Of a stretch of 38,494 nucleotides of DNA, positions 10,155-17,662 are shown in pieces (position 1 is the first letter of the stretch; each line of letters opens with the position of its first letter). A program made the translations under genes and the position numbers. Location of the stretch: NCBI GenBank assembly GCA_903919035.1, contig CAIXGY010000125.1:1-38494 (forward strand), in the 5' to 3' direction. The notes under the pieces are model-generated. The model was not told where the DNA came from. It saw nothing but the letters and a program-made list of their open reading frames with translations, and made no database searches. This stretch comes from an uncultured Planctomycetaceae bacterium. Lineage in GTDB: Bacteria > Planctomycetota > Planctomycetia > Pirellulales > UBA1268.

Positions 10155-11282
10155 TCAGCGAGTGCCGAGCGTCGAGGGGAGGGCAGCCGTCGGGTAGCGG
10201 GGGCCGGCGGTCATGGCGGGCTGCCACGACGTCGTGTGGTTGGTCGGCTCGAGGAGCCGGGGGAAGGCACGCGTGGCGCCAGTCGGCCCTGTGCCCGGCA
10301 GGAGCGGCATGCCGCCATTGCCGCTCGTCGATGGTTGCGCGGCCGGAGCCGTGGTGCCCGATGAATTGCTGCCCGGCACGAGGCTCGGAGGCGGGACGCG
10401 GTCGAGTGTCGCACCGGTCTGCGCCGGCGCCGGGGAAGCCGGCACCGAAGTCGGCGGCGCGACCGCACCCGACGACGGGGCGCGGGGCAATTCGGGGATC
10501 GGCTTCAGCGACGGTGCCGGGGAGAGCGCCGGGGGGGCGGTCGGTTGCGGCTGGAGCTGCGTCGTCGCCTGGGGGGCGTACGTGCCGGCCTGGGGCACGA
10601 CCTGGGCCGGTGGATAGCTCGTCGCGGGAACAGCCTGGGGATATCCGGTCGCAGGGAGCGCGGGCGGGCTGATGCTCGGCTGGCCGGGAACCAGTTGTTG
10701 CGGGACGTCCGCGCCGGCGGCGCCCCAACCCTGCGGCAGCGGTTGCGCGGACGGGACGGCGGGCGTGGCAAATGGGCTCGCGGCCGGCGTCGCCGGCCCG
10801 GGCAAGGCCGGGGCCGGGGGGTATGCGACCGGAGCGCCCACCGCGGCTGGCGGCGCATAGCCAGGTTGCATCTGTACGTACTTCGTCGTCGTCACGGCCC
10901 GATATTGTGTCACAGGCACATTCACCGCCTGCTGCACGTATTGCGTCACCGGTTGCATGCACTCGGTGGGGCAGCCCGTGCAGGGATCGATTTCGCACGA
11001 CGGCTTGTAGGTCGTGACGGGCACGGATTGGTACTGGGTGCGGTACGTGGTCTCGGGAACGTAACTGGTCTGCTGCACCGGCACCATCACCGGCGGCGGG
11101 GGCGCTGCGATGGGCGCCATGACTGGCGCGACCGGCGCGATGGCGTACGCCGGAGCCTTGCGAAAGCAGGAGCCGCAGCCGGCAAACAGGCCGCTCAAGC
11201 AGCACTCCTGGCCAGCCGCCGGCACCGCGAGAATCGCGGCCCACGCCGGAAGCCAGAACCGAATCGCACGGATCGTCTTCAT
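10155..11282 (-). CDS. Secreted Pro/Val/Tyr-rich, cysteine-containing protein (conserved in Planctomycetes, function unknown)
   Basis: 375 aa with an N-terminal signal peptide (MKTIRAIRFWLPAW..., probable cleavage after about residue 24). The exported part begins with a short cysteine-rich segment (ECCLSG, GCGSC) followed by A/P/V-rich sequence. Residues about 70-140 contain degenerate repeats of the type VPxTxYRxxYxSVPVTTYKP, VPVTQYRAVTTTKYV, interrupted by a CEIDPCTGCPTEC cluster. The remaining 220 residues are low-complexity Pro/Ala/Ser. Proteins with such V-x-V-T-x-Y repeats and paired cysteines are a recognisable planctomycete class and are probably surface or cell-wall components (inference). 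The ATG at 11282 is preceded by GAGGAG about 7 nt upstream. It appears monocistronic; no enzymatic motif is seen. Confidence 0.8.
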   Translation of the reverse strand: MKTIRAIRFWLPAWAAILAVPAAGQECCLSGLFAGCGSCFRKAPAYAIAPVAPVMAPIAAPPPPVMVPVQQTSYVPETTYRTQYQSVPVTTYKPSCEIDPCTGCPTECMQPVTQYVQQAVNVPVTQYRAVTTTKYVQMQPGYAPPAAVGAPVAYPPAPALPGPATPAASPFATPAVPSAQPLPQGWGAAGADVPQQLVPGQPSISPPALPATGYPQAVPATSYPPAQVVPQAGTYAPQATTQLQPQPTAPPALSPAPSLKPIPELPRAPSSGAVAPPTSVPASPAPAQTGATLDRVPPPSLVPGSNSSGTTAPAAQPSTSGNGGMPLLPGTGPTGATRAFPRLLEPTNHTTSWQPAMTAGPRYPTAALPSTLGTR

Positions 11283-11563: not shown

Positions 11564-12175
11564 TCAACGGTCCCGGCAACGCCGTTCGAATCGATCGTAC
11601 AGATCGTAGAGCGCTTCGCGGAGGTTCCCGCCGTGCGCGGCGTAGGCGTCGACCACATCCTCGGCGGCGATAAGGCCGCCGTGATCGGGGAGGTCGGCGA
11701 CGATGCGGCCGAGCAGAGCCGGTGACGTCGTGCAGTGGACAAGCGTCGCCATCCGGCCCGGGCGATGCACGGTGACGATCAGCCCCACGCCCCGGTACCG
11801 GGCCACATGGCTGACGAGCGCCCCCTGCAGTACCCCCAGCGTCTCCCAGCCATCGACGCAGAGCATGGTGCCGGGGCGTGAACGGAACACCGCTCGTGCG
11901 ACGATCGGCCCGTCGCGTCGCGACCGCGACCGGATCCGGCCGGCGAGCAGCCCGGAATCAGCCAGCGTGCTGGCGAGTGCGGCGAGAAGGGTGGACTTGC
12001 CGGCCCCGTGCATGCCCTCGATCGCCGAAACGCCGAGGCACCGGGCCCGGCGGGCCAGGGCTGCCACGTCGAGTGGCAGGCCGAGGGAATCCAACGGCGG
12101 CACGGCTCCAGGTCGCGTGAACCGCGTGGCGAACGGATTGTGCCGGCCGACAGGCGGCGGGGCGGTCGTCAGCAC
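11564..12175 (-). CDS. P-loop ATPase, conserved planctomycete family, function unknown
   Basis: 203 aa. The start is taken as GTG 12175, which overlaps the preceding stop (GTGCTGA); the ORF-track start at 12289 would overlap the upstream gene by 121 bp. The N-terminus has NPFATRFTRPG, then a Walker A motif GMHGAGKST (about residues 52-60). A plausible Walker B is LCVDGWE, followed by a VTVHRPG stretch resembling a sensor region. The C-terminus HGGNLREALYDLYDRFE is a pattern I associate with a Planctomycetes-specific NTPase family. No transmembrane segment is seen. Its strict coupling to two arrestin-like proteins suggests one functional unit, but the substrate and role are unknown. Adenylate-kinase- or TsaE-like alternatives are possible and unproven. 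Confidence 0.75.
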   Translation of the reverse strand: MLTTAPPPVGRHNPFATRFTRPGAVPPLDSLGLPLDVAALARRARCLGVSAIEGMHGAGKSTLLAALASTLADSGLLAGRIRSRSRRDGPIVARAVFRSRPGTMLCVDGWETLGVLQGALVSHVARYRGVGLIVTVHRPGRMATLVHCTTSPALLGRIVADLPDHGGLIAAEDVVDAYAAHGGNLREALYDLYDRFERRCRDR

Positions 12176-12606
12176 GGTGCCTCCCGAACCGCCAAGGGTG
12201 CGGCGGGGGGCACGCGGCCCATCACGAATTCCTGCTCCGAGACGTAGTCCCTGCCGGCGGCATAGAACACCCGCACGCGGACACACCAACGGATTTTCAC
12301 GATCACACCCTCGTATGTCAGTGGGCTGGCGGGAAGGCGAGTCTCGAAGTCGTGTCCTGCCAGGGCGGCGAGCAGGGCGTCACGATCCACGATCCTTTCG
12401 AAGGCATGAACCGCGAGATCCTCTTCGCCCTTTCCCTCCGTGTACCACACGACCGACAGTTCCAGGGCCCGGACGGACTCCGGATCCACGCCCCCGACGC
12501 GGCTGTGCACGACGAGCGGAGCGGCGGCGTCGTAACGGCGTCCGGGACGGTCGAACTGCACGTCGATGACGGGCGAGCCCCGTCCGCCATCCGGAGACAG
12601 GCTCAC
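12169..12606 (-). CDS. Arrestin-like beta-sandwich protein (predicted)
   Basis: 145 aa. The GTG start at 12606 overlaps the stop of the upstream gene (GTGA); the ORF-track start at 12888 is a shadow extension. The protein begins VSLSPDGGRG, then IDVQFDRPGRRYDAAAPLVV and ALELSVVWYTEGKGEEDLAVH, and later FETRLPASPLTYEGVIVKIRW and VRVRVFYAAGRD. Alternating beta strands plus a LPASPLTY-x-G-x-x-x-x-IRW-type motif resemble the arrestin/Vps26/SpoOM sandwich (inference). The same order of motifs (RPGxRYD..., a VH segment, PA...S...IRW) recurs in the C-terminal domain of the upstream gene, so the two look like diverged copies of one domain. No signal peptide is seen, so it is probably cytoplasmic. Confidence 0.7.
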   Translation of the reverse strand: MSLSPDGGRGSPVIDVQFDRPGRRYDAAAPLVVHSRVGGVDPESVRALELSVVWYTEGKGEEDLAVHAFERIVDRDALLAALAGHDFETRLPASPLTYEGVIVKIRWCVRVRVFYAAGRDYVSEQEFVMGRVPPAAPLAVREAPC

Positions 12607-13916
12607 GGTGATTTCTCCGCGGCAGGGTGGACGATGATCGGAAACATCCGGGTGAACGGGGGCCAGCGGGCTGGAATGCCGTGCACCCTGATTCGCCAGC
12701 GGACGGCGTTGTGTTCCGACAGGAAGGAATGCATGGCGACGGCCGGGATCGTCACCCCGGCGATCCCCTCGAACCGCGTGCCCGGTGAGACACGGATGTC
12801 GCGCCAACCGCGGAGCTGTTCGCGATGCACGACGAGCGACTCGCTCCGGGTATCGGTGCCTTGGTGAAAGGTCGCCTGCTCCTCGCACTCCAGCGTCACC
12901 GTCAGTTCACGGAGGTCGCCCGAGCCGCCCTGGGCCAGCAGGACGTCGTAGCGGCCGCCAGGCCGGAGGGGATGGTCCGAGATTTCGAGTTGGGTGGTGC
13001 CGACAGCGGTCTTCAAGAGCAGGGCACGCGTGAACAGCAGGATTGCCGCGCAGCCGACCGCGCCGGCCGGCACCAGCATCGCGAGCAGAAACCAATGCAG
13101 CCTGCCTGTCGCGAAGTCGAGGCCGGCGCCGACCGCCAGCACCGCCAGCACCGTGTTCCACGCCACAGCGAACAGGCCAAGCCCAAGCAGTGTCCACGAC
13201 TCCGGGCTTTCCAGGGGCAGGCGATAGCGCAGCACGGTTCCCGGTGAGTTGGTCATGTCGTCGCATGCTGGAATACCCGGAAGTCCGGTGGCCGATTTGA
13301 ATTGCGAGGATGTCAGCACCGGCAGGGTCCCCGCCGCCGCGATCGCCTCCTCAGATCGGCCCCAACGGCGAACCGCACGCAGCAGTCCGGAGCCGCCGAA
13401 TGCGAGGAGTGCGCCAGGGAGGAGCAGGGTCAGTCCCCACATCCACCAGTTGAAGCCCCGGTGCAGGACGACCGTGTCGGGATCGGCCGGGTCGAACCAA
13501 CCTGAAACCTCCGCGCCCAGCGGCCACGCTGCCAACGCGGCGATCGCCGCGGGGCGATCCGCCGTGGTCGCGGCGGCATCGGCCCTGGTCCACGATTCGC
13601 GGATGCCTCCCAGCGCCTCGTACCGCACGCGGAACGACGGTGTCCACGTGGCCGAGGCCGACCCGGGCGGATCCTGGACCTCGCGACGAATCAGTCCCTG
13701 CCCGATCACCCGGCAGACCGTCGGCACGTAGTCGCGATTGACCCGCCATTCCCGCATCGCCACGCCGGTCACCAGCAGCGCGCCGAACACGAGGCCGGCC
13801 ATCACGAGCACGGCGTGAAACAGCCCGTCGCCGAAGGAGCCCCAGGCCTGCGAACCAGTTCGCCGGTGGCCCCGCTTCTTGCCGAATATCCGCGGCAGCC
13901 TCACGCTCGCGCTCAC
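12603..13916 (-). CDS. DUF3592-like membrane protein with C-terminal arrestin-like domain
   Basis: About 437 aa from GTG 13916 (a GTG at 13904 is an alternative; the ORF-track start at 14003 would run into the preceding gene). Four hydrophobic segments are visible: FHAVLVMAGLVFGALLV, WGLTLLLPGALLAF, LGLFAVAWNTVLAVLAV and LLAMLVPAGAVGCAAILLF. Between the first two lies an extracytoplasmic DUF3592-type domain (YVPTVCRVIGQG...PSFRVRYEALGG...PADPDTVVLHRG). The roughly 130 C-terminal residues (RPGGRYDVLL...VVHREQLRG...IPAVAMHSF...NAVRWRIRV) look like an arrestin-type sandwich related to the next gene product. It is separated from the alpha-CTD-like gene by only about 28 bp and overlaps the next gene by GTGA. 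Function is unknown; a membrane anchor for an arrestin/ATPase complex is my inference. Confidence 0.7.
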   Translation of the reverse strand: MSASVRLPRIFGKKRGHRRTGSQAWGSFGDGLFHAVLVMAGLVFGALLVTGVAMREWRVNRDYVPTVCRVIGQGLIRREVQDPPGSASATWTPSFRVRYEALGGIRESWTRADAAATTADRPAAIAALAAWPLGAEVSGWFDPADPDTVVLHRGFNWWMWGLTLLLPGALLAFGGSGLLRAVRRWGRSEEAIAAAGTLPVLTSSQFKSATGLPGIPACDDMTNSPGTVLRYRLPLESPESWTLLGLGLFAVAWNTVLAVLAVGAGLDFATGRLHWFLLAMLVPAGAVGCAAILLFTRALLLKTAVGTTQLEISDHPLRPGGRYDVLLAQGGSGDLRELTVTLECEEQATFHQGTDTRSESLVVHREQLRGWRDIRVSPGTRFEGIAGVTIPAVAMHSFLSEHNAVRWRIRVHGIPARWPPFTRMFPIIVHPAAEKSP

Positions 13917-13944: not shown

Positions 13945-14262
13945 CTACATCTGGGCGACGGTTTCGGGTCCCGCAGCCGGGGCCCCCGCCGACTGCCCCT
14001 CACCGTCGACCGGCTTGCCGGCTCGGAAGAAACCGATCTTTTCGAGTGCCTTGTAGACCTCCTCCAGCGTCTTCTCGCCGAAGTTCGAGATCGCCAGAAG
14101 ATCGGAGCGGGTGCAGTTGAGCAGGTCGTGAACCGTGAAAATCCCGCGCTCCTCCAGGCAGTTCGTGGTGCGCACCGAAAGGCCGATCTCGGCCGTGCTC
14201 ATGTCGAGCTTCTCGGCCATTTCGTCCGATTGAGTCAGGTTTTTGTATGGAATGCGCGGCAT
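13945..14262 (-). CDS. Free-standing RNA polymerase alpha-subunit C-terminal-domain-like protein
   Basis: 105 aa; ATG 14262 with GGGAGG 8 nt upstream fixes the start. Residues about 22-78 match the alpha-CTD helix-hairpin-helix fold: AEIGLSVRTTNCLEERGI, TVHDLLNCTRSDLLAISNFGEKTLEEVYKALEKIG. In true RpoA this domain binds UP-element DNA and activators. Here no alpha N-terminal dimerisation domain is present, so it is not the polymerase subunit itself. The C-terminal 25 residues are Gly/Ala/Pro-rich and disordered. It is divergent from the helicase gene and upstream of the DUF3592/arrestin unit, with which it may be co-transcribed. A DNA-binding or transcription-modulating role is likely but unproven. 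Confidence 0.85.
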   Translation of the reverse strand: MPRIPYKNLTQSDEMAEKLDMSTAEIGLSVRTTNCLEERGIFTVHDLLNCTRSDLLAISNFGEKTLEEVYKALEKIGFFRAGKPVDGEGQSAGAPAAGPETVAQM

Positions 14263-16876: not shown

Positions 16877-17662
16877 TCAGCCGGCGGCGCCGTCGCTGCT
16901 CGCCGGCTCGGCCGCAGGGGCTGCTTGATCGGCCGCCGGCTCGGCCGCAGCGGCCTCGGCGAGCATCGAGGCCTCGAAGGCCGGCAGGAGTTTCGCGATG
17001 AAATCGCTGCACTCCGCCGAGGCACGGTTACTGGTCATCTTCGTCTGATCGATGATTGCATACAGCTTGAAGACCGCCGGAAAATCATTGAGCGCGATGC
17101 GGGCGATCTGCGGGGCCTGCCAGCTGAGCGGCTGCGGTCCGGTGGGGATCGGAGCCGTTTTGCCATCCTCGGACTTCTTCCGCTCGGGCACGCCATAGGT
17201 CCAAAACACCCGCAAGGTCTGCCCCTGCTTGGCGAAAGTGCCCGTGAACGCCTCGGCGATGCGGCCGTCGGCCAATTCGATCGACTGACGGTGCTCGGGT
17301 TCCGCGATCTCAAAGCCCGCGCCGGGATAGCAGCGATCGGGCGTGTGGCCCGAGGCGTCGTGGGGAGTCGCGCAGACCACGAACGCCGAAATAGGAGTCT
17401 TGGTCTTCTGGTTGCGGTACACCCGCGACACGCTGCCCACGGCCCCTGCCCGGTCGAGTTCCGCCTGGCTGGTCTCGATCTCCCGATCAAGCGACCACTC
17501 GCCGAAACTCGATGGGAACGTCCTTTCCAGCCGCTTCGCCGACTCCTCGAGCAAGTGATCCTGCCGCTCCGCCCAGCGCTCGGTCCAACGGCCTTGAACG
17601 ACCGTCACGCCCACCAGCAACGCGGCCGCCGCCGCCAGGACCAAGCCGGTCTTCGAAGCCAT
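16877..17662 (-). CDS. EpsI-like exosortase-associated protein (DUF3485)
   Basis: 261 aa. A single N-terminal hydrophobic segment (GLVLAAAAALLVGVTVV) is followed by an extracytoplasmic domain. The hallmark of the EpsI/DUF3485 family, the Cys-containing TPDRCYPGAGFE, is at about 108-118 (Cys111), after RVYRNQ...ISAFVVCATPHD. EpsI proteins accompany exosortases in exopolysaccharide/PEP-CTERM systems; in some genomes the domain is fused to the exosortase, here it is separate. The Ala/Glu-rich last 30 residues are low complexity. It is the last gene of a minus-strand run, 31 bp after the Wzz/kinase gene, and probably in one operon with it. Confidence 0.85.
   Translation of the reverse strand: MASKTGLVLAAAAALLVGVTVVQGRWTERWAERQDHLLEESAKRLERTFPSSFGEWSLDREIETSQAELDRAGAVGSVSRVYRNQKTKTPISAFVVCATPHDASGHTPDRCYPGAGFEIAEPEHRQSIELADGRIAEAFTGTFAKQGQTLRVFWTYGVPERKKSEDGKTAPIPTGPQPLSWQAPQIARIALNDFPAVFKLYAIIDQTKMTSNRASAECSDFIAKLLPAFEASMLAEAAAAEPAADQAAPAAEPASSDGAAG

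Follow-up and report, generated by a model that had tools for sequence, protein, structure and literature searches.

In an uncultured Planctomycetaceae bacterium, three adjacent genes, here called A, B and C, seem on balance to encode a membrane-anchored, two-lobe arrestin adaptor that is served by a dedicated ATPase (probability about 0.58). Arrestins are best known from the control of animal receptors and are central membrane-protein adaptors in eukaryotes. Bacterial arrestin-fold proteins have been described mainly as Spo0M, with an unclear role. Within the literature searched, the split, membrane-tethered arrestin with its ATPase is probably a new form of arrestin; no paper on arrestins in planctomycetes was found there, judging by titles, and most subscription journals and preprints were not covered. 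Almost all genomes of one planctomycete order retain the module, and its occurrence in distant classes is patchy. It provides a concrete and genetically simple system for asking what bacterial arrestins do, and it gives a fold and a testable role to two unannotated planctomycete families and to the C-terminal half of a DUF3592 protein.

The window, that is, the whole stretch of DNA that was analysed (38,494 nucleotides), carries A, B and C as three minus-strand genes with products of 437, 145 and 203 amino acids. Gene A (12603..13916) and gene B (12169..12606), which encodes the soluble arrestin N-lobe, share the stop-start overlap GTGA at 12603..12606, inside which B starts at 12606. Gene B in turn overlaps gene C (11564..12175, start at 12175), which encodes the compact P-loop ATPase, by the 7 nt GTGCTGA at 12169..12175. 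The true start of A is probably not the GTG at 13916 but the GTG at 13904 (residue 5), where most A orthologs begin (MRLPRIF...). An ATGA, GTGA or TTGA overlap between A and B is found in 47 of 75 unfused pairs from named genomes. Since this type of overlap and the order A-B-C recur across the order and beyond, the arrangement goes beyond chance. A scan of the locus for promoters and terminators gave nothing informative. A preliminary description, made from the sequence alone, had proposed three minus-strand genes joined by these two overlaps, a four-TM DUF3592-like protein as the first product and a small P-loop NTPase with the C-terminal end given below as the third; all of this held and its coordinates were correct.

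The first product has four TM-like segments, near residues 36, 161, 244 and 276, and a Pfam match to DUF3592 (E 2.2e-8). From N- to C-terminus, A consists of a basic tail (KKRGHRRTG), TM1, a DUF3592 beta domain (residues 75-155; 13452..13694, minus strand), TM2, a loop, a TM3-TM4 hairpin and an arrestin C-lobe, a seven-strand sandwich of residues ~306-432 (12621..13001, minus strand). Across 48 orthologs, positive charge is found in the N-tail (net +7.4) and in the TM2-TM3 loop, but not in the TM3-TM4 loop or in the segments on either side of DUF3592, which range from neutral to negative. Therefore, as inferred from this charge distribution, the N-tail, the TM2-TM3 loop and the C-lobe are likely to be cytoplasmic, on the same side as B and C, and the DUF3592 domain is predicted to be extracytoplasmic. 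The window's B and C have no TM segments. The conserved KKRG..R of the cytoplasmic tail could be a docking site, although this is only inferred. The DUF3592 domain is not present everywhere: it is absent from A in six genomes near the window, belonging to several related genera, where residues ~54-140 (up to 154 in some) are gone and TM3-TM4, the arrestin lobe, B and C are all retained. As a separate observation, two A proteins from distant planctomycete families (L075 and L085) have two tandem DUF3592-like segments, and two A-profile matches are likewise seen in G184 and G108.

The arrestin fold was approached by structure prediction and by profile searches. Ortholog alignments were fed to AlphaFold2 and the models were compared with the PDB by Foldseek, the top 50 matches being considered per query. 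A and B were predicted separately, because a joint MAFFT alignment of A, B and A-B fusions superposed the C-lobe of A on B. The model of B has a mean pLDDT of 91.6 and a pTM of 0.81; that of A has a mean pLDDT of 86.1, with about 95 for the C-terminal domain over residues 308-430. Both B and this domain contain seven main strands in identical order. All 50 of these PDB matches belong to the arrestin clan for either query: ARRDC3, TXNIP, beta-arrestins and Spo0M for both, together with VPS26 for B and Rgp1 for the C-lobe of A. TM-scores against known arrestins lie in a moderate range (0.5-0.76). The matches of A are as long as a single domain, and the highest TM-score among them, 0.76, is with the TXNIP N-domain. 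Both domains match arrestin N-lobes best, so that structure alone cannot separate an N-lobe from a C-lobe.

At the sequence level the signal is weaker and comes from the families rather than from the window proteins themselves. In Pfam and NCBIfam, A and B of the window match no arrestin family, and B matches nothing at all. Among 37 B homologs, however, Arrestin_N and Arrestin_C are each matched by 13, Arrestin_N at best with 8.9e-10, and VPS26 (Vps26 1.7e-3) or Spo0M by a few; the Spo0M family PF07070 has no match above cut-off in A and B of the window and matches one of the 37, at 1.2e-4. Arrestin_C is also matched by 5 of 16 isolated C-lobes (best 6.8e-6). Searched against the PDB, the B profile retrieves 16 chains at E<1, all 16 of the arrestin clan and individually weak (best 0.003), and a second B alignment of 79 proteins retrieves 14 chains at E<5, again all arrestins. 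The A profile found no relatives in the PDB, and the profile of the C-lobe set A9 found there only designed Ig proteins, at E>0.1. The invariant residues of B are W54, G58, G60, E62, P92, P95, W107, R110 and R112. On the combined evidence, B and the C-terminal domain of A are, with high confidence, predicted to be arrestin-like folds.

The relation between the two domains is revealed by one-piece proteins of other planctomycetes (L078, L081, L083 and L084), which are built as Arrestin_N, two TM segments and Arrestin_C, with Arrestin_N at E 1e-11 to 1e-17. The B profile matches solely their first lobe (1e-7 to 3e-6) and the C-terminal profile of A solely their second (4e-15 to 1.5e-8). Therefore, TM3-TM4 and the C-lobe of A correspond to the second-half module of the one-piece proteins, and A and B are likely to be a single arrestin whose two lobes have been separated and tethered to the membrane, and no recent duplicates. 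Direct BLAST and profile-profile comparison of the A C-terminus with B gave no significant similarity, as is expected for two anciently diverged lobes; the shared fold thus rests on structure and on the bridging one-piece proteins. The two genes are fused in two families, in L054/L088 (MAG MB_PLM_2) and in L085, although the joint in L088 sits in a repetitive linker and an assembly effect is possible. Only in such L088/L085-type fusions and in the one-piece relatives do both lobes occur in one polypeptide; in the window they are split over A and B. Two of the one-piece proteins, from different lineages, have in common an extra C-terminal domain of unknown kind (Y.LDV.V.R...TG.LAGT): L083:1489-2979 (plus strand, residues ~380-497) and L084:106-2046 (minus strand, residues ~525-647).

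These results bear on what the preliminary description had made of the two domains. It had read them as a duplicated arrestin-like sandwich on the basis of motifs in a common order, and had named structure prediction as the check. The check was passed, both domains being arrestin-like and alike, and the arrestin-like reading held, mostly on other grounds than those offered; the duplication has to be corrected to two lobes of one arrestin, given the one-piece profile matches and the fact that neither profile matches the other lobe. As for the motifs, RPGxRYD was rejected as a coincidence: it is confined to 2 of 78 A orthologs and 1 of 115 B orthologs, and it lies out of register, the PG that B conserves being at 27-28 and the RPG at 20-22. 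The VH segment fails as well, since its H is conserved in B only. The third motif did hold: P...(S/H)..(I/V).W does not vary in either family (P391/W407 of A and P92/W107 of B), and its offset from strands 6 and 7 is identical in the two models.

The third protein, C, carries GMHGAGKST and ends in HGGNLREALYDLYD. Its family conserves an NPF, a Walker A (GxHGxGK), a Walker B DGxE, TxH, GNxRE and LYD, and residues G54, H56, G57, G59, K60, D108 and E111 are invariant or nearly so. With a Walker A and a Walker B that includes the catalytic acidic residue, C meets the criteria of an ASCE-type P-loop NTPase. In Pfam it comes closest to AAA_16, NACHT and nSTAND, with weak matches in most members (best 2.4e-6, NACHT); the window protein itself gives only P-loop background in Pfam and NCBIfam, below the cut-off. 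Like the NTPases of these families, C has the Walker A, the DGxE Walker B, a strand ending in T and a C-terminal GNxRE; it differs from them in a length of only about 200 amino acids, a score below the Pfam cut-off, the invariant N-terminal NPF and the TxH motif. A full STAND/NACHT NTPase was considered and not accepted, the window protein being below the Pfam cut-off; a WHD and a C-terminal sensor are excluded because 203 amino acids leave no room for them. C is probably an active minimal ATPase on the AAA/STAND side of the P-loop class, its activity being inferred from sequence. The invariant NPF near its N-terminus might serve as a docking site, again by inference.

The three genes travel together. 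Among 60 relatives, whose order is probably Pirellulales, 56 have A, 55 have B and 56 have C, almost always as a single copy. In 50 of the 60 they are adjacent in the same order, as read from coordinates. The other ten include two contig breaks, one half-complete genome, one dispersed set and three genomes without the set; in G040, G049 and G058, A and B lie together and C is on a different contig. When only the good genomes of the relatives set are counted, the module is conserved in 42 of 45. Of 80 named GTDB loci, 68 have all three genes and 76 have A and B, always on one strand. In a sample of 195 genomes across the phylum, with only strong matches counted, full-length A, B and C occur in one identical set of 20 genomes (20/20/20), in 17 of which the genes are adjacent; it is hard to explain such an identical distribution without a joint function. 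Outside the order, A-B-C is kept together in ten sampled genomes from seven families (f21, f28, f33, f35, f52, f57 and f72). C is located elsewhere in G077, G157 and G181, which represent one genus of another order, and from this and the separate contigs it follows that C need not be translated with A and B. Thus, the gene-order survey that had been suggested as a check was passed, both within the order and in seven families outside it. A scan of genome contigs returned 242 relatives, and the 80 examined are planctomycetes by title, save one titled 'bacterium'; searches of viral contigs and of plasmids returned no relative of B. Second, divergent A-B copies also occur in two genomes of the order (L032 in G037, where C is present as well, and L040 in G044); the B of L040 matches Arrestin_N at 8.9e-10 and may be nearer to ordinary arrestins.

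A gene for a free-standing RNA polymerase alpha C-terminal-domain protein of 105 amino acids (13945..14262, minus strand; PF03118, E 7.8e-20) precedes A in the same orientation, at a distance of about 30 bp. Of 69 testable loci, 39 have such a gene upstream of A and in the same orientation, often nearby, and it is conceivable that it is the first gene of the A-B-C operon. The flanking genes are partly syntenic within the order, as UvrD - alpha-CTD - A-B-C - PolX. Neither division or envelope genes, in clustered loci, nor a client gene were found linked to A-B-C. Downstream of C, the window encodes a secreted-looking, proline/tyrosine-rich low-complexity protein (10155-11282, minus strand) with a signal-peptide-like start and a CDPCTGC-like motif; it has no Pfam match, and relatives lie downstream in 28 of 80 loci. 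Further away, at 16877-17662 on the minus strand, there is a DUF3485 (exosortase-associated, EpsI-like) protein (E 4.5e-13), and the large ORFs beside it could belong to an exosortase locus.

What computation supports is the folds, the gene order, the co-occurrence, the identity of the lobes and the topology signals. The adaptor mechanism goes further. A would reside in the inner membrane, with DUF3592 outside and the C-lobe held at the cytoplasmic face on the TM3-TM4 hairpin. The soluble N-lobe B would dock on A, by which a two-lobed arrestin would be rebuilt at the membrane; this docking is inferred, and there are no interaction data. The translational overlap of A and B would keep their amounts matched. 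The rebuilt cradle may then bind a client, for which a membrane protein or its cytoplasmic tail is the simplest candidate, and C may couple ATP binding or hydrolysis to the loading, release or remodelling of adaptor or client; the client and the role of C are both inferred. The earlier suggestion of membrane-protein handling or signalling is merely an inference, and the direction of action is likewise inferred. It could even be imagined that A-B-C is an ATP-driven bacterial counterpart of the eukaryotic arrestin/retromer-type cargo adaptors, in two pieces and fixed to the inner membrane, and that the two-piece arrestin selects planctomycete membrane proteins for sorting, removal or recycling. 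This bolder reading, taken as a whole, is no more than tentative.

The alternative that ranks highest, though less likely than the adaptor, is a transmembrane signalling relay, in which DUF3592 senses outside, the arrestin lobes rearrange and C acts as a nucleotide switch, with transcription through the alpha-CTD protein as a possible output. In its favour are the predicted position of DUF3592 outside, between TM1 and TM2, the alpha-CTD gene that precedes A in more than half of the testable loci, and the weak resemblance of C to STAND/NACHT switches. However, several related genera have lost DUF3592 by a clean deletion and retain the rest of the module, and a fixed sensor is therefore not needed. 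Furthermore, the operon is without a kinase, receiver or output domain.

It is unlikely that A-B-C is a Spo0M-like envelope or division factor, that is, a split arrestin that scaffolds envelope growth or budding with C as motor or switch and without a trafficking-type client. Spo0M is a solved arrestin-clan match for both models, and the near-universal conservation in the order would fit a core cell function, but the clustered loci show no linked gene for division or the envelope, Spo0M is soluble and in one piece, and functional data in Planctomycetes are lacking. A defence system, with a STAND-like NTPase and an arrestin-like sensor directed against phages, has the weak similarity of C to AAA_16/NACHT/nSTAND for it; it is very unlikely in view of the almost constant single copy, the conservation in most good genomes, the lack of defence genes seen nearby and the lack of B relatives in viral contigs or plasmids. 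A known anti-phage system had been considered as a separate candidate and was rejected: PADLOC has no match for A or B, and what it returns for C is mere P-loop background. Equally improbable is that the three are mere neighbours without a joint function, kept by the general synteny of the UvrD-PolX region, for the flanking genes are indeed partly syntenic within the order, but the trio also stays together outside it, the phyletic sets are identical and A-B fusions occur in two families.

The membrane-anchored arrestin adaptor with its ATPase can be compared with several known systems. One is the group of one-piece planctomycete arrestins, whose lobes are homologous and in which the TM hairpin directly precedes the C-lobe, as in A; they differ in having N-lobe, two TM segments and C-lobe in one protein and in being without DUF3592. 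The genomes of these one-piece arrestins (G088, G063, G233 and G194) contain no clear C, with P-loop background matches at most. The alpha-arrestins (ARRDC3, TXNIP; PF00339/PF02752) are the best fold matches of both domains, at 3.6e-7 and 5.3e-9 for the ARRDC3 N-lobe, and, like the A and B lobes, they carry a characteristic P-x-S loop ahead of a strand with an aromatic residue. Alpha-arrestins are eukaryotic single polypeptides without TM segments and with docking motifs for E3 ligases. Unlike A-B-C, they are without a P-loop partner. VPS26 of retromer and VPS26C of retriever (fold match of B with 5f0l, 4.1e-6) offer the parallel of an arrestin-fold subunit in a membrane sorting assembly. No counterparts of VPS35 or VPS29 are present among the flanking genes of the window or the conserved neighbours, only linked genes being considered, and the partner of A-B is a P-loop ATPase instead. 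Finally, there is the comparison with Spo0M (PF07070; B. subtilis 5cl2), as which the prokaryotic arrestin clan was described (PMC2515105). Spo0M is reported to associate with FtsZ and to affect cell shape in B. subtilis (PMC5325327), where its function is only partly understood. It matches the models of B and A at 4.6e-6 and 3.9e-7, respectively, and appears as weak Pfam matches in some homologs of the window proteins. However, Spo0M is a single, soluble, two-lobed polypeptide, whereas A and B are two proteins, one of them in the membrane, with an ATPase of their own.
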